Part shown: piece by piece, positions 54,471 to 64,000 of the stretch
How the letters are laid out: each line of letters starts with the position of its first letter
How positions within the stretch are numbered: position 1 is the stretch's first letter
Notes under the pieces: model-generated
Seen by the model: only the letters and a program-made list of their open reading frames with translations
What the model was told of the DNA's origin: nothing
The model's database searches: none
Translations under genes and position numbers: made by a program
Assembly: GCF_004138165.1 (NCBI RefSeq)
Contig: NZ_RYFF01000025.1
Coordinates: 1 to 64,000 of the forward strand
Source of the DNA: Candidatus Chloroploca sp. Khr17
Lineage (GTDB): Bacteria > Chloroflexota > Chloroflexia > Chloroflexales > Chloroflexaceae
Direction: 5' to 3'
Length of the DNA: 64,000 nucleotides

Positions 54471-54515
54471 ATGCTGGCGAACACAACCAGCTGCGCTGGT
54501 TGTGTTCGCCAGCAT
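54471..54515. terminator. Terminator with ccagctgcgctgg core
   Basis: ATGCTGGCGAACACAACCAG and CTGGTTGTGTTCGCCAGCAT are exact inverted copies with the core loop CTGCG. It follows the GNAT gene by 12 bases. Confidence 0.85.
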
Positions 54516-54601
54516 CCGCGTCATTGCCAACTTGTTGCAAGCAACATACTTTTATGCTACGATAAAATTATAGCTCTTTTGTTCTATGACAAGGTACTTC
54601 A

Positions 54602-54968
54602 ATGGAGCCAATCAAAGACTCTTCAGTTGAATTTAAGATTGATCGCCTACCAAAAGATCTGCAGGAACAATTTCGCAGGCTCTATGTTGGAGTTACCAAC
54701 GCGGGTTATCCGGCTGCTTACTGATGTAGATGATCTTGTCCTCGACTGTTTTCTCGGTAGTGGAACAACCGCTGTTGCCTGCGTCCGCGAGGGACGCCAA
54801 TACCTCGGGATTGAGCTTGATGAAACCTACGTCCAACTTGCCCACGATCATATCAGTGCCGAGTTGAATCGTGAACAGATGCTTATGCCTGTCTCTCCTC
54901 AAGAAGAGCAGTATGTTCAACTCCATCATCAGCAACTCATCGTGGAGGATGAGCATGACGCTGATTAA
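54602..54968 (+). pseudogene. Remnant of a DNA methyltransferase gene (deleted and frameshifted)
   Basis: In one frame a start-like MEPIKDSSVEFKIDRLPKDL runs 40 codons to a stop. In a second frame the C-terminal part of an N4/N6-type methyltransferase is intact: LELPTRVIRLLTDVDDLVLD, CFLGSGTTAVACVREGRQYL, then GIELDETYVQLAHDHI. The catalytic D/N-P-P-Y region expected between is missing. The two frames suggest internal deletion plus frameshift. Confidence 0.65.
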
Positions 54969-56784: not shown

Positions 56785-56837
56785 AAGCGGGGATTAAAAC
56801 GAGGCTAGCGTAGCTAGCCTCGTTTTAATCCCCGCTT
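56785..56837. terminator. 25-bp perfect hairpin between hydrolase and CcrM gene
   Basis: AAGCGGGGATTAAAACGAGG with CTAGC and its exact inverted copy enclose GTA. It overlaps the stop codon of the methyltransferase gene by two bases. Flanking AT-rich stem parts allow termination of the minus-strand gene. Confidence 0.85.
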
Positions 56838-57957
56838 ATGCCAGGCCTTGCTCACGACGATAGCGTTCGCGCAGGTCGTCAATGCTGATAAGGTTACCGG
56901 TGTCATCTTCGCAGTACCAGTATTCCCAGCCATTCGAGGCAGGGCGTTGCTGCGCCAGCGCGGCAAGCTGATGCATTGAGCCGTGCTGATCGTGCCAGAC
57001 GAGATGCCCATCAGCCTTGACCGTCGCTTCTTCGCGCCGATCGCGTGAAAAGAGGCGCTGGCCCACGGCCAGGTAGTGCGCTTCAATCAGTTGACCCAGG
57101 CTAATGCGTGGTTGGTGACGGCGCGAGGGGGTCAACAGTTCACGCTCGCTCAACGCTGAGCCGGGGATGCTATCGATCCGCCGACGGGCAAGTTCAAGAT
57201 AGGCCGGTGCAATTTCGATGCCAATGTAGTTACGCTGCAACTTCTTTGCGACGGCACCAGTTGTCCCCGAACCAAAAAAGGGATCAAGCACAAGATCGCC
57301 GGGGTTCGTTGAAGCCAGCAATACTCGATAAAGCAGCGCCTCGGGCTTTTGCGTCGAATGGGCTTTCTTGCCATCGATCTTCAAACGCTCGGCCCCAGTA
57401 CACAACGGGAGGTGCCAGACGTTTTGCATCTGCTTTTCGTCATTGAAATGCTTCATCGCCTGGTAATGAAAGGTATAGCGTTTCTGTTCTTTTGACTTTT
57501 TGGCCCAGATCAAGGTTTCAGTCGCGTTCTGGAACCGTGTCCCGTGAAAATTGGGCATCGGATTCGTTTTGTGCCAGATGATATCATTCAGAATCCAGTA
57601 GCCCAGATCCATCATAATTTTGCCAACGCGAAAGATATTGTGGTATGACCCAATGACCCAGATAGTGCCGTCAGCTTTCAAGACGCGCCGACACGCGCTC
57701 AGCCACTGCTCGGTAAATTGGTCGTACGCTGCACTGTCAACAAACTGATCCCAACCGTCATCAACGCCAGCCACGACGGTTTGATCGGGACGCAACAACG
57801 CTTGTTCAAGCTGCAGATGGTAGGGCGGATCGGCAAAAATGAGGTCAACCGATTGCGCAGGCAAGCGTGTGAGCACCTCAAGACAATTCCCCTCCACAAT
57901 CTCATTCAGGGGAAGCCTATCATCCTCCATCTCTTCAAGACCTCCACGCCGTCGCAT
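56836..57957 (-). CDS. CcrM-type adenine DNA methyltransferase (GANTC class)
   Basis: A 373-residue beta-class methyltransferase that resembles CcrM/HinfI-type enzymes methylating GANTC. The catalytic motif is FADPPYHLQLEQ, then the SAM-binding LDPFFGSGTTGAVA. Between, WVIGSYHNIFRVGKIMMDLG, YWILNDIIWHKTNPMPNFHG and FQNATETLIWA are almost diagnostic for the family. The C-terminal domain specific to CcrM, which contacts DNA, is also present (PRISLGQLIEAHYLAVGQRL to SMHQLAALAQQRPASNGWEY). Start ATG (MRRRGGLEEM) with GGGAGAAACCA. No restriction enzyme is adjacent, so it looks like an orphan methyltransferase that may control cell cycle or gene expression. Confidence 0.92.
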   Translation of the reverse strand: MRRRGGLEEMEDDRLPLNEIVEGNCLEVLTRLPAQSVDLIFADPPYHLQLEQALLRPDQTVVAGVDDGWDQFVDSAAYDQFTEQWLSACRRVLKADGTIWVIGSYHNIFRVGKIMMDLGYWILNDIIWHKTNPMPNFHGTRFQNATETLIWAKKSKEQKRYTFHYQAMKHFNDEKQMQNVWHLPLCTGAERLKIDGKKAHSTQKPEALLYRVLLASTNPGDLVLDPFFGSGTTGAVAKKLQRNYIGIEIAPAYLELARRRIDSIPGSALSERELLTPSRRHQPRISLGQLIEAHYLAVGQRLFSRDRREEATVKADGHLVWHDQHGSMHQLAALAQQRPASNGWEYWYCEDDTGNLISIDDLRERYRREQGLA

Positions 57958-57993
57958 TGGTTTCTCCCAACTTTGCGCACGTATACATTCTGA

Positions 57994-58024
57994 GACCTCA
58001 CAGGTCTTGAAGACCTGTGAGGTC
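57994..58024. repeat. GACCTCACAGGTCTT palindrome
   Basis: Two 15-base arms GACCTCACAGGTCTT / AAGACCTGTGAGGTC with one base between. It lies between the Phd/YefM-type gene and the CcrM gene, where it may reduce transcription into the latter. Confidence 0.85.
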
Positions 58025-58093
58025 GTAAAAAACGCTGGGAAGACATCTATGTGCGCCAAGTTAATCTTCCCCGAGAAGGCCTCCCAGATACCC

Positions 58094-58348
58094 TTAGCCG
58101 TCAGTCTCCTCAGCCGTAGCCCTCCCCTTTGCGGTTTCAGCTGCCTCGGCCATCGTGCGCAAAGCGGTAAAGAGTTCAATTGACAGCAAGACTCCGCTCG
58201 GGTAGCCTTTTTGGGTAATCACAATCGGCTGATTCTGCTCACGCGCTCGCTTCATCAGCATCGCGAGCGAACTCGCTGCCTTTGAAATGGGAACCATGCC
58301 ACGTTGCAGATCGACATCCAGCGATAATACCGGGTTCTGATTGGACAT
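58094..58348 (-). CDS. Phd/YefM-family antitoxin (solitary)
   Basis: An 84-residue protein with the Phd/YefM fold: MVPISKAASSLAMLMKRARE followed by QNQPIVITQKGYPSGVLLSI, the region that binds operators. The C-terminal part that would embrace a toxin is AEAAETAKGRATAEETDG. No toxin (RelE, Doc or PIN) is adjacent, so it is an orphan or its toxin lies elsewhere. Start ATG with AAAGGA. Confidence 0.83.
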   Translation of the reverse strand: MSNQNPVLSLDVDLQRGMVPISKAASSLAMLMKRAREQNQPIVITQKGYPSGVLLSIELFTALRTMAEAAETAKGRATAEETDG

Positions 58349-58448
58349 ACTCGGCGATCCTTTCTTCGCATTCGACTTCCGCACCTGTAGCCTTCCCCAG
58401 GCGGGTTGTTCTGCCGAACACTCTTCACGAACAAAATGAACGATGATC

Positions 58449-58550: not shown

Positions 58551-61500
58551 CTACCCCATTGCCTCTAGCAACACCTCAGTTGCCCATGACCGTTGCCCAG
58601 CGACCGGCCCTTCTTCACAACTTAGCCGGGCAAGCGTCGTCAGGGCTGCTTCGGCACATGCACCTTCACCCTGCGCCAGGCAACCCAGGGTTGCCTGGCA
58701 CTGCCGCCGTATGATGGGTAGCGGATGGTCGGGCAAACCCTGGGGTAGATGCAAGAGTGCTTCGAGCCTCACAACAACGCTCGGCTCGGTCGCATGAGCC
58801 AGAGCCGTGATCGCTGCTAGGCGCAGCGCAAGCGGTTGATCGCTCTTCCCGGTCAACGCACAGAGCCAATCAGCATCAAAGGTGCGCTCGGCACGGTAGC
58901 TCAGGGCTTTCAGGCGAAGCACCAGGGGCGCATCGGGATCATCCAGGGGGTCTTCGAGGCGCAGATTCGCGGGAGCAAACTCCTCGAGCAGGGTATAAGC
59001 CTGCACCCGCACGGGGGGCGATGGGTCAGTCAGGTAACGCTGCAACAACGGCAGCACGTCCTGTTCGCCGCGCCGCAAGAGGGTTGCAAGCGCGGCCAGC
59101 CGTAGCGCGGGTGCCACCGCTGAATGCTGGCTGAGCCGGGTCAGCACAGGGGTGATCTGCGGGTCATCGAGTAGCCGCAGCACATCAAGGATGGCAAGCA
59201 TCGCGGGGCCACTGGCGGATTGCACAGCTTCTAGCAAGCAGGCGAGCCCGGTTGCATCACGATTGCGCGCCAAGACACGAGCCATTGCAGGTGCCAACAC
59301 TCCTTCTTGATGCTGATGAAACAGTTGCCTCAACTGTTTCATGCTGGCCTCCATCAACGTGGCGGGCAACGCTTCGAGCGCAGCCAGACGGATCTCGTCG
59401 GCTTCAGCAGGATCGCGGACAAGCCCAAGCAGGCTCATCTGGGCTTCATACTGGACACTACGGCCAAGCGCGGCAATGGCCGCATAACGTACCAGAGGGT
59501 CTTCGCCAGGATCACGCGCACGTGCGCCAACAACGGTGGTTGGGATCGCTGGATGACTAAGCTGTTCGAGCATAGCCGCGCGGATCGCCGGCTCGTCGCG
59601 CTGCAGGACGAGTCGTTCACCGAGCATGCGTTGCACAGCCGGATCGCCGCCAAGCCACTCTAACGCCATCAAGCGTAACCGCAGATCAAGCTCGGTCGCC
59701 TGTAACAGTGCGCCCAGTTCTTCGGCTGGATGACGAAGCCGAGCCAGCGTTATGAGCAGCGCCTGAGCCACGTCGCGTCGTTGTTCAGCCCAGAGCGCAC
59801 GACGCAGTGCGGTCACCACCTGCTCGCGCATCCCCACCGTATGGGCCAGGTGCGCCATCCCGCTGATGGCCGCCAGCGCCAGATGTCCCGCTTGTGCCTC
59901 TACCATCGCCGCAAACCGCGTCGCCGGGTGCGCCAAGCGAGGGTTGTCGGCCAGCGCTTCGGCCAGGATACGCTGGACTGGGGGCGGTAATGGCAGGTCA
60001 GGCCAGGCCAGAGCAGGAGTCTGGGCAAGTTCCGGGGCAACCCGTTGCCAGTGCGCTTCAAGCACGGTGATGAACGAAGGGACAAGCAGGGCGGTGAAGA
60101 TCGACAGCGCTGTCCGGTCGCCAGTTTTGCCCAGCGCTTCAACGATGACCGAGGCAAGCCGTGGATCAAGGATCGCTCGCTGCAAGGCCCTTCGCAAGGC
60201 GATTGCCGCAGATGCACCAGAGGCAGGATGTGCGCCCACATCGCCAAGCGCCAGGGCGGCAACCCGTTTCACCAGCGCTGGCGCATCACCCGTGAGCAGG
60301 GCCACCCACGTTGGCCCAAGTTCCGGTAGGCCGCGTGCCGCGAGATGTTCGGCGGCACGTACGCGTACCACGAGGGGCAAACCTGGTCGTGCCAACAGGC
60401 GACGCAACAGCACAATGCTAGGAGCGCCCTGCCGGGCAAGCACGTCAAGCGCATCAAGCCGTGTTATCAGTGGCAAGGCCGCACTCACGCAGATGCGGGC
60501 GAGCAGCATTGGCCTCCCAGGATGCGGAACCACTGCCAGCGCATCAAGCACCTCGCGTCGTGCAATGCGGGTGGCCTCGGGCCGCAGCAAGACCCGCGTC
60601 AAGGCAAGCAAAGCCACCGAGGGAGCCTCGTTCGCAAGACTCTGCAGCGCCGCCCGTCGCAAGATGGGCGCGTCGGCGACCGCAGCCTCTTCAACGAGAT
60701 CGTGCCGGTTGGCGCAGGCGAGGGCCAGAGCCCGCAGTTCTTCAGGCACAGCAGGATCATCCAGCAGAGCCAGCGCCGCACGGGTGCGCTGCGTGCCCAT
60801 CGTCTCGTCGTTCAGAAGGGAAGCACACCCTTCACGCAAGGGTGAGAGCGCAAGCAATTGCCGCGTTGCTCCATCAACACAGGCCGCGACATACGCCCGA
60901 AAGGCATAGGCGGCGTCTGGGGCGTCAGGGGCAACCTCCGCAAGCAGTTCGGGCGTTGGGGCCAGGTCAATCAAGAGGTCAGCCGCGAGCCTGCGCAGTG
61001 CGGACGGCACCCCCGATCGTCCCCCAAGCTCCAGCCAGATCGTCGGCAGTGGGGTCAGCAACGGGGCCGTTGCCCGCATCGCCGCCAGCGTCCGAGCTTC
61101 GTCATGCGCCGCTGCCGCCGCAAAGAGCACCGGCAAGACAGGGGCCAGTTCGACCAGCAATGCCTGCCGCTCTTCGTCAGTCCCAGCAGCCGTCAGGTAT
61201 TCCACCAGACGCAGATGCAACCCAGGGGCATAGGTCGGCATTTCACGCACACATGCTACCAGGGCCCGCAGATTGTCAAAGTCGTCGGTTTCACGTGCGA
61301 GCATCTCGAACAGGGGCACAGGATCAACGCGCAGACCAGCGCTCAGGGCGGCGACAGCCGTGCGCTCTTCGACCGGCAGATCGGTGAGTGCATGGGGATC
61401 GGCATCGGCCAGCACCCGTGCTTGTTCATACGAGCGCAGGTGAAGACGGCCTACCGCGACCCCCGCATGCAGCATCCGGCCATTCCTAGACGGCCCTGTG

Positions 61501-62294
61501 CCTGCCACTTCAATGACGGAATAATTGGTCAGCAATGGCTCGGCCAGCGCATAGGCCTGCGCATATAACGCGGCCCGGGAGGACGGAATGCCACCTATCG
61601 GGTAGATCAGGGCCAGCAACGCCAACTCTGCCAGGCTCTCGCGCACCGGGGCAAGTGGGGCACCATGGAGCGCCGCGAGCAGCGGGGCAAGATCGTAGGT
61701 TGGCAAGAGATGCGCAAGCCACTGCGCAATGGTTGTCTCGGTGGGCAAGGCAAGCGGACGAAGACGCACCCCGTCCCAGGCACCTCTCAGGGGCAGGGTT
61801 AGCGCAATCCGCAAAGTAGGCCATGTGCGCTGTGCCGAAACAAGAAACTGTTGCCAGATAGCCCGACGAGGGAGGGCCAGCACTTCCCAGTCATCAAGCA
61901 AGAGCAGGCCAGGGCGCTGATGCGCGACAAACTGCTCAGGCAAGCCAGCCTGGTATGCTGCCCGTGCGAGCACCGCCCGCGGGGGAAGGTTAAGCAGATC
62001 ATCGTCGCCCAATGCAAGATAGAGCAAGGGCCGATCGCTCGGATGCGCCACCCAGTGCGCCGCAAGTTGCATCAAGGCCAGCGAACGCCCCGAAGCTGGT
62101 GGCCCGACCAACCCCAGCGCCGTCGGGGTTTCGATGAACGCGGCGTACTCTGTCGCGACATCAAAGCCCAGGGGCAGGCGCAGCAACGGCTCCATCAAAC
62201 GCAACGCTGGCTCACGAGACAGCCGCGCCTCGATCCTGGTGCGACACATGCGCAACCAACTTCGGCCAAATGAAAACCCTCTCATTATGCCCAT
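58551..62294 (-). CDS. P-loop NTPase-like / HEAT-repeat protein
   Basis: A 1247-residue protein. Residues 30-260 look like a NACHT/AAA-type nucleotide-binding domain: Walker A GLVGPPASGRSLAL (residues 61-74), where R70 takes the place of the usual lysine, and Walker B GLLLLDDWEVL (129-139) with two aspartates. From about residue 400 onward there are many HEAT-type helical repeats (for example RLAALATLLRRGEQDVLPLL). It could be a scaffold or a STAND-type switch. It starts 15 bases after the C11-like gene on the same strand, so the two are one operon. No signal peptide or membrane segment. Confidence 0.72.
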   Translation of the reverse strand: MGIMRGFSFGRSWLRMCRTRIEARLSREPALRLMEPLLRLPLGFDVATEYAAFIETPTALGLVGPPASGRSLALMQLAAHWVAHPSDRPLLYLALGDDDLLNLPPRAVLARAAYQAGLPEQFVAHQRPGLLLLDDWEVLALPRRAIWQQFLVSAQRTWPTLRIALTLPLRGAWDGVRLRPLALPTETTIAQWLAHLLPTYDLAPLLAALHGAPLAPVRESLAELALLALIYPIGGIPSSRAALYAQAYALAEPLLTNYSVIEVAGTGPSRNGRMLHAGVAVGRLHLRSYEQARVLADADPHALTDLPVEERTAVAALSAGLRVDPVPLFEMLARETDDFDNLRALVACVREMPTYAPGLHLRLVEYLTAAGTDEERQALLVELAPVLPVLFAAAAAHDEARTLAAMRATAPLLTPLPTIWLELGGRSGVPSALRRLAADLLIDLAPTPELLAEVAPDAPDAAYAFRAYVAACVDGATRQLLALSPLREGCASLLNDETMGTQRTRAALALLDDPAVPEELRALALACANRHDLVEEAAVADAPILRRAALQSLANEAPSVALLALTRVLLRPEATRIARREVLDALAVVPHPGRPMLLARICVSAALPLITRLDALDVLARQGAPSIVLLRRLLARPGLPLVVRVRAAEHLAARGLPELGPTWVALLTGDAPALVKRVAALALGDVGAHPASGASAAIALRRALQRAILDPRLASVIVEALGKTGDRTALSIFTALLVPSFITVLEAHWQRVAPELAQTPALAWPDLPLPPPVQRILAEALADNPRLAHPATRFAAMVEAQAGHLALAAISGMAHLAHTVGMREQVVTALRRALWAEQRRDVAQALLITLARLRHPAEELGALLQATELDLRLRLMALEWLGGDPAVQRMLGERLVLQRDEPAIRAAMLEQLSHPAIPTTVVGARARDPGEDPLVRYAAIAALGRSVQYEAQMSLLGLVRDPAEADEIRLAALEALPATLMEASMKQLRQLFHQHQEGVLAPAMARVLARNRDATGLACLLEAVQSASGPAMLAILDVLRLLDDPQITPVLTRLSQHSAVAPALRLAALATLLRRGEQDVLPLLQRYLTDPSPPVRVQAYTLLEEFAPANLRLEDPLDDPDAPLVLRLKALSYRAERTFDADWLCALTGKSDQPLALRLAAITALAHATEPSVVVRLEALLHLPQGLPDHPLPIIRRQCQATLGCLAQGEGACAEAALTTLARLSCEEGPVAGQRSWATEVLLEAMG

Positions 62295-62309
62295 CTCATC
62301 TCATACCAC

Positions 62310-64000
62310 TTACCGTCGCACCACCGGCACATAGATGAATGGCCGCTGCAATCCTCCAGGCATTGGCAAAACACGGATGCCCCCCGTGCCCTCAGTGATG
62401 CCCCCCGGCCCGCGCCCGGGGATCGGTTCGAGATAGGTTGTCAGCAGCCGCGCCCATTCACTCTGACTCGTTTGACTATCAGGCCGATCAAAGACATACT
62501 GTTCAAACAATGCCTGCTGTTGACCAAGCCGCTCGCCCGAAGGAAAAAAGATCGCGAGACCTTGCGCCTTCGGGAAACTGATGGGAAAGCCCGCCAGGCT
62601 CTCTCCTGCGCTCGCTCGATGCACAAGCACTGGTGTTTGTGTCTCATCCTCAAGCCAGACAACCAGCGTCTCAGCCGCTGTTCGCACCGTATCCGGGGCT
62701 GTCTCGATCGCCGCTACCTCAACCGCCAGGCTATAGAGGTCGATTAGCGCATCTTCTTGCGCCGCAATCCGATCATTCCCTAGATTCAACGCATGAATCA
62801 GCCCATTTCCCGATGAGTCATAGCGCTGTGTTTTGGTTAGGGCCTCGCGCAACGCAGGGCGCGTCGTAGCGCCAGTCGTCGTAAGTTCGGTTCGCAAAGC
62901 AAGGGCAAAGGTCTCAACCTGGGCAAGCAAGGCTTCGCTGCGCCGCAGATCATACGCCACGAGGCTAAACGCGCGTTCCGGCCCTGCCGCCGCAGCGTAC
63001 GCCTCGACCACACCTGCCGCAACACCTGGTATCTCGTCACGTCCGGCCCCTGCCAGGAGGCTCAGTACATCTTGCCACGGGGTTATCTGCCACATCTGAT
63101 CCGATGAACCAACCATCGCCCGCGCATACGGGGCCGTCGCGGCGAGCACGTCGAGACTGCCCATCACCGGGGCCTGATAGATCACCAGGTCAAGCCGGTT
63201 GTCGCCTTCCAGCCCCGCTGCGCGATAGGCCGCCTGGAGATCATCGAGATTGAGGGCGGCTGGGGCCTCACGCTCCCCCGGATGTTCGTCAAGCGCCAGC
63301 CAGCCCGCCGCCTGAGCCGGGGTGATCACCAGCAACGCGGTGTGTGTCGCAGGATACCGCGCACGTCCAGCGGCAATGAAAGCGGCGAGGGTCGCAGGAT
63401 CGGCACTGTTGATCGCACCACGCGCCCGGCAATCCGGGGGCGTCTGCGCTGCATAGACACAGAGCTCGGCCCCCCGTGGGCCATAATAGTCAGCCAGGCT
63501 GATCAGGTTGACCTGCGGGTAGGCCGTTGCCAGCGCGGGCAACCAGGCAAGTTGCTGCGCGGGCAACACTCCCCAGGGCAACCGTGTTCGGTCACCAAGC
63601 ATGTTATCGCCGGCCAGGTAGATCAGCAAGGTCCAGGCTGCGTCGCTCGCTGCACGAGCAGGCTCACCTGGTTCAGCCAGAGGAGGCGGAGCGAATGGGG
63701 ACGCTGGAGCAGGCAACAAGGTGATCGCCCGCTCAGCCTGGCTGTAGCCATACTCAACTGTCGAGTTCAGCCGCGGATCGCCCGCATAGATCACTACATA
63801 CCAGCGGTAACTGCGCCCATAGGTAAAAGCAAAGGCCGGAACATCAGCAAAGCTGGCCGGACTCAACGCAAAGCTCAGGGGTTCACGATCTGCCGCACGC
63901 ACTGGCCCACAGACCTCCACCGGTAAACCGGTTGCAGGATCACCCCGCACTGGATCATAGACACACACCTGGTGAAAGGTGCCTGCGGTCGCCCGTCCTT
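62310..64000 (-). CDS. C11 (clostripain-like) peptidase-fold protein, catalytic residues missing; 5' end outside window
   Basis: The frame continues beyond the window edge, so the N-terminus is missing. The visible part has a beta-rich N-terminal region, then the C11 core from WTLLIYLAGDNMLG. In active members the His lies in an NHGGGW-type motif after a hydrophobic strand; here the matching position reads LLVITPAQAAGW. The Cys lies in DACLMG; here it reads IYQAPVMGSLDV. Both catalytic residues seem absent, while the fold (DVLAATAPYARAMVGSSDQ) is kept. It is probably a pseudoenzyme acting as a partner or sensor. The gene ends 15 bases before the HEAT protein gene. Confidence 0.75.
   Translation of the reverse strand, partial: GRATAGTFHQVCVYDPVRGDPATGLPVEVCGPVRAADREPLSFALSPASFADVPAFAFTYGRSYRWYVVIYAGDPRLNSTVEYGYSQAERAITLLPAPASPFAPPPLAEPGEPARAASDAAWTLLIYLAGDNMLGDRTRLPWGVLPAQQLAWLPALATAYPQVNLISLADYYGPRGAELCVYAAQTPPDCRARGAINSADPATLAAFIAAGRARYPATHTALLVITPAQAAGWLALDEHPGEREAPAALNLDDLQAAYRAAGLEGDNRLDLVIYQAPVMGSLDVLAATAPYARAMVGSSDQMWQITPWQDVLSLLAGAGRDEIPGVAAGVVEAYAAAAGPERAFSLVAYDLRRSEALLAQVETFALALRTELTTTGATTRPALREALTKTQRYDSSGNGLIHALNLGNDRIAAQEDALIDLYSLAVEVAAIETAPDTVRTAAETLVVWLEDETQTPVLVHRASAGESLAGFPISFPKAQGLAIFFPSGERLGQQQALFEQYVFDRPDSQTSQSEWARLLTTYLEPIPGRGPGGITEGTGGIRVLPMPGGLQRPFIYVPVVRR

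Follow-up and report, generated by a model that had tools for sequence, protein, structure and literature searches.

A predicted C11-family pseudopeptidase and a probable pseudo-NLR of Candidatus Chloroploca sp. Khr17: neighbouring genes, most likely by chance

Introduction

In the C11 peptidase PmC11 the catalytic dyad consists of His133 and Cys179, with Asp177 as the S1 residue (PMC4850288). Caspase-like peptidases, which are often inactive, have been described as paired with STAND-type proteins in bacterial conflict systems, and Kaur et al. described inactive STAND proteins that have MoxR-vWA partners (PMC7159879). Among the animal NLRs, NOD2 is rendered inactive by the engineered Walker A mutation K305R, the mutant showing no NF-kappaB activation (PMC3400628). 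The HTH domain of RodZ, finally, binds MreB and not DNA (PMC6946637).

Here, two neighbouring genes of Candidatus Chloroploca sp. Khr17 are compared with these systems. They lie in a stretch of 64,000 nucleotides, referred to as the window (NCBI RefSeq assembly GCF_004138165.1, contig NZ_RYFF01000025.1, positions 1 to 64,000), for which an initial annotation had been made from the sequence alone.

Results

The two genes

Gene calls in the window place the two genes next to each other on the (-) strand, with 15 bases between them:

58551 to 62294, (-) strand: NACHT-HEAT gene (P0002), 1247 aa; orthologues in 58 of 100 relatives; purifying selection indicated by dN/dS
62310 to 64000, (-) strand: window part of the predicted C11-family pseudopeptidase gene (P0001); Pfam C11 match at 1.3e-11

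The C11 gene, which is the upstream one of the pair, is cut by the end of the window; on the contig of the same genome the whole gene extends from 62310 to 65117 and encodes 935 aa. The two nearest genomes are those of Ca. C. mongolica and Ca. C. asiatica, where the NACHT-HEAT protein is 88-89% identical. Comparison of the three Chloroploca species gave dN/dS values of 0.22-0.24 and 0.16-0.18 for the two genes (0.04-0.06 for gatA), which indicates that both are under purifying selection within the genus and are therefore real genes. The gap between them is preserved within the genus also, at 15 bases in two species and 36 in one. A scan for promoter-like sites between the genes on their strand, of a kind that is weakly informative, found none.

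Downstream of the NACHT-HEAT gene, the window encodes a Phd/YefM-type antitoxin (PF02604, 4.5e-8; 58094-58384) and, at 56836-58179, an N6/N4 DNA methyltransferase that is complete and has a RAMA domain. Of a further N6/N4 DNA methyltransferase, 54471-54968 encodes the C-terminal end only (profile positions 169-219 of 221), probably as a gene remnant.

The C11-family protein

The Peptidase_C11 domain was matched over the Pfam cut-off in the C11 protein and also in all 14 orthologues tested, and a profile matched the solved clostripain structures 6n9j (1.3e-9) and 9cip (9.4e-7). A single-sequence search of the PDB with P0001 returned chance matches only. The AlphaFold model of the C11 part had a pLDDT of 36.7, with three near-identical rows usable, and no conclusion was drawn from it. 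The following features were located:

62406 to 63635, (-) strand: C11 domain and its C-terminal part, residues ~495-904 (Pfam, paralogue and structure alignments)
63318 to 63320, (-) strand: Pro600 codon at the catalytic His position (alignment to 6n9j; invariant in 14 orthologues)
63168 to 63170, (-) strand: Pro650 codon at the catalytic Cys position (alignments), with Gln648 at the S1 Asp position

Profile alignment with 6n9j accordingly pairs the catalytic His with Pro600, the catalytic Cys with Pro650 and the S1 Asp with Gln648, and alignment to intact paralogues encoded by the same genome likewise leaves the protein without either catalytic residue. Among the 14 aligned orthologues Pro600 and Gln648 are invariant and Pro650 is nearly so; the catalytic Cys is absent from every one of them, its position being occupied by Pro or Ser. 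Two other C11-domain proteins of the genome (L001 and L002) retain DAC and a His at the catalytic positions. Since the dyad positions are replaced across the orthologues while intact paralogues exist in the same genome, the protein belongs to a stable non-peptidase subfamily rather than reflecting a recent loss. Judged by its residues, then, the C11 protein is a non-peptidase homologue, which has the C11/clostripain domain and lacks the His/Cys dyad. Its conserved, remodelled active site probably binds rather than cuts.

The N-terminal start of the protein is signal-peptide-like, with a hydropathy maximum at residue 22 and a family consensus that ends in AQ, and for this reason the protein is most likely exported. 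The N-terminal half also contains a weak carboxypeptidase-regulatory-like beta-sandwich.

The NACHT-HEAT protein

HEAT repeats (HEAT_2, 2.4e-10 over six stretches) are the only Pfam matches in the window's NACHT-HEAT protein. The Pfam NACHT domain was matched in seven of 17 orthologues (best 9.5e-7), as well as in remote NACHT-HEAT relatives elsewhere in the phylum. An AlphaFold model of residues 1-700 (pLDDT 87.7) was compared by VIA-align, using residues 6-444, with NLRC4 (Z 21.0; 310 residues at 4.8 A), NOD2 (Z 20.9; 324 residues at 4.3 A) and NLRP3 (Z ~19). As modelled, the protein is an NLR-type NACHT module set on a HEAT array, with these features:

60963 to 62276, (-) strand: NLR-type NACHT module, residues ~7-444 (AlphaFold, VIA-align, Pfam NACHT in orthologues)
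62082 to 62105, (-) strand: Walker A variant GPPASGRS, Arg70 replacing Lys (Gly69 and Arg70 invariant in 20 orthologues)
61884 to 61907, (-) strand: Walker B-like LLLLDDWE, Asp134 and Glu137 invariant (orthologue alignment)
58554 to 60962, (-) strand: HEAT-repeat array, residues ~445-1247 (Pfam HEAT_2; helical repeats in the model up to residue 700)

HEAT/ARM repeat proteins that took the top Foldseek ranks did so on account of the long array, and identity of the HEAT part with the phycobilisome protein NblB was rejected, the match being far under cut-off and confined to the repeats.

The Walker A motif departs from the GxxxxGK[ST] pattern of NACHT/STAND proteins: Arg replaces the Lys in each of the 20 aligned orthologues, which come from three families, and in every further NACHT-bearing orthologue with a readable motif. 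In the Walker B motif Asp134 and Glu137 are retained and the next position is non-acidic; the sensor-1 strand lacks its usual Arg. The NACHT part is nevertheless the best conserved region of the protein, so that the Arg looks selected for, not like decay, and the domain has a function, which may be to bind nucleotide by means of the Arg. Taken together, the NACHT-HEAT protein is a probable pseudoenzyme. No signal-peptide-like start was seen in it.

As description, the initial annotation stands in part: it had reported two same-strand genes 15 bases apart, a C11 fold that had apparently lost its catalytic His and Cys, and a long P-loop NTPase-like protein with HEAT repeats. To this are added the NACHT fold of the P-loop domain and the Arg at its Walker A Lys position, the truncation of the C11 gene by the window end, and the restriction of the adjacency to one genus.

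Adjacency of the two genes in relatives

The occurrence of the two genes was then compared across 100 relatives, of which 58 encode NACHT-HEAT; 27 of these also have a C11 orthologue, leaving 31 with NACHT-HEAT and no C11. The genes adjoin in three of the 27, all Candidatus Chloroploca, and in none of the 24 others. Distances of 0.52, 2.02 and 2.11 Mb separate them in three single-contig genomes (G029, G033 and G038), and 21 drafts carry them on different contigs; drafts could in principle hide adjacency, but the flanks on both sides and the single-contig genomes argue against this. By synteny clustering the C11 gene is divergent from gatA in six genera (g1, g5, g6, g9, g11 and g13), which is probably its old context. 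No PADLOC match to a known defence system was obtained, although such an absence is not proof, and there was no plasmid match.

Because synteny is not conserved and one protein is predicted to be exported and the other cytosolic, the genes most likely came to be neighbours in Chloroploca by chance and perhaps share a transcript, with C11 as a bystander. The initial annotation had proposed that the pair acts together, and had named a lack of conserved neighbourhood in related genomes as evidence to the contrary. Beyond the genus that lack is what the 24 genomes display, each gene having a different conserved neighbour elsewhere. Its idea of two pseudoenzymes survives for the proteins taken singly, as a C11 domain without its dyad and, probably, a NACHT domain with an Arg P-loop; the joint system is not supported.

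A response regulator beside NACHT-HEAT

A response regulator gene comes next after the NACHT-HEAT gene, in the same orientation and often with an overlap, in 43 of the 58 genomes. The encoded protein is usually 250-330 aa long and comprises a receiver (PF00072, ~1e-30), a RodZ-type HTH_25 domain over cut-off and a C-terminal hydrophobic tail, which forms a single transmembrane (TM) helix at or just past which the proteins end. Its phospho-acceptor Asp54, together with Thr81 and Lys103, is invariant in the alignment. The three Chloroploca genomes and the eight of the genus with Chloroflexus yielded no orthologue of the regulator, their best matches being to receiver domains only. The other four exceptions (G024, G031, G032 and G072) are fragments or contig ends.

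The regulator gene still adjoins the HEAT gene where the NACHT part has changed. The HEAT proteins of the Roseiflexus-like genomes G046, G052, G055 and G058 (the family name being inferred) lack a NACHT part and are ~1000 aa long, and in that of G046 Pfam detects nothing but HEAT; the P-loop of G073 is erased, reading VAGSAFDTW. A second case of an Arg-P-loop NACHT-HEAT gene beside a response regulator, this one of the OmpR type (REC-Trans_reg_C), occurs in a different Chloroflexota family (L128:1208-4295 and L129:883-3986). In the Chloroflexus genus (L097, L098 and L100), a gene for a cyclase-AAA-TPR protein precedes the NACHT-HEAT gene, and genes for a ribonucleotide-reductase-small-chain-like protein (PF00268) and a short-chain dehydrogenase follow it.

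The gene pair of regulator and NACHT-HEAT is better supported than that of C11 and P-loop protein, and the REC/RodZ-HTH/TM regulator may be the real partner of NACHT-HEAT. No description of such a pair was found in the literature searched, which is not proof of absence.

Discussion

The explanation considered reasonably probable is that C11 and NACHT-HEAT are unrelated and happen to lie side by side in Chloroploca, NACHT-HEAT serving as a pseudo-NLR scaffold that docks on a membrane-tethered regulator and C11 as an exported binder. The cytoplasmic pseudo-NLR would combine an NLR-type NACHT fold, with its fixed Arg P-loop, and a long HEAT array; the array would be the working scaffold, and the NACHT part a folded domain for assembly or autoinhibition without ATP turnover. 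Docking would take place on the regulator composed of REC, RodZ-type HTH and TM helix. This tail-anchored protein would be the switch, its phosphorylated receiver bringing the HEAT protein to the membrane, with ATP hydrolysis not in control. The regulator is missing from the window's own genus, so that the proposed mechanism would apply to relatives; in Chloroploca and Chloroflexus the scaffold would persist without the regulator and with another partner. More tentatively, the arrangement could be extended to a module widespread in the order, in which an Arg-P-loop NACHT-HEAT protein without nucleotide switching is driven by the membrane-anchored REC/RodZ-HTH regulator, phosphorylation replaces ATP and some lineages discard NACHT.

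A rather doubtful alternative is that the regulator and the HEAT protein, as the ancestral pair, couple two-component signalling to the cytoskeleton of MreB, with the RodZ-type HTH binding MreB and the HEAT protein acting as a scaffold for cell shape or division. The HTH_25 match followed by a TM helix fits such a role, as does the contact that the RodZ HTH makes with MreB in place of DNA (PMC6946637), and MreB was present in all 75 genomes searched. A protein so universal here is uninformative by its presence, however, and the regulator differs from RodZ in its N-terminal receiver and the absence of a periplasmic domain; its HTH_25 could, moreover, bind DNA.

That NACHT-HEAT works as an active, NLR-like immune receptor of bacteria, the Arg standing in for Lys in nucleotide binding, is unlikely. 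Although the NLR-type module is entire by fold and its NACHT part is the best conserved, with Asp134 and Glu137 invariant, the Lys is lost from all orthologues and the usual sensor-1 Arg is absent. Bacterial NLR-related anti-phage proteins carry an N-terminal effector domain, for which a NACHT domain beginning at ~residue 7 in the model leaves no place. The gene is also a core gene of the order, not patchy like a defence gene, it has neither a PADLOC nor a plasmid match, and some orthologues have no NACHT part at all.

Very improbable is a single regulatory or conflict system made of the two pseudoenzymes: the shared strand, a short gap compatible with co-transcription, retention in three species and the described pairing of caspase-like with STAND-type proteins (PMC7159879) weigh little against genes that adjoin in no other genus, the expected difference in compartment, the genomes with NACHT-HEAT alone and the lack of a PADLOC match.

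The proposed C11/P-loop system can thus be dropped. In its place the relatives offer a natural series of forms of one NLR-like protein, with the Arg P-loop in most, the P-loop erased in one lineage and NACHT absent from the Roseiflexus-like genomes, the regulator being retained throughout. With this series one can test if NACHT proteins are able to serve as scaffolds while turning over no nucleotide, and if their switch can pass to two-component signalling.

Compared with known systems, the C11 protein shares its domain and fold with clostripain and PmC11, but differs family-wide in having Pro for the catalytic His, Pro or Ser for the Cys and Gln for the S1 Asp. The NACHT-HEAT protein resembles animal NLRs and bacterial NACHT proteins (NLRC4, NOD2 and NLRP3) in a NACHT module over ~310-360 residues that is followed by a repeat array, whereas the Walker A Arg, the missing sensor-1 Arg, the missing N-terminal effector domain and HEAT in place of LRR set it apart. 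The regulator has, like RodZ, an HTH_25 domain and then one TM helix; unlike RodZ, it has a receiver in front and no periplasmic C-terminal domain. With the iSTAND proteins of the MoxR-vWA ternary systems (PMC7159879) NACHT-HEAT has in common that it is, probably, an inactive STAND-type protein of filamentous bacteria. Neither MoxR nor vWA was seen as a conserved neighbour among those annotated in the synteny clustering; here, in contrast to those systems, the conserved neighbour is a response regulator.
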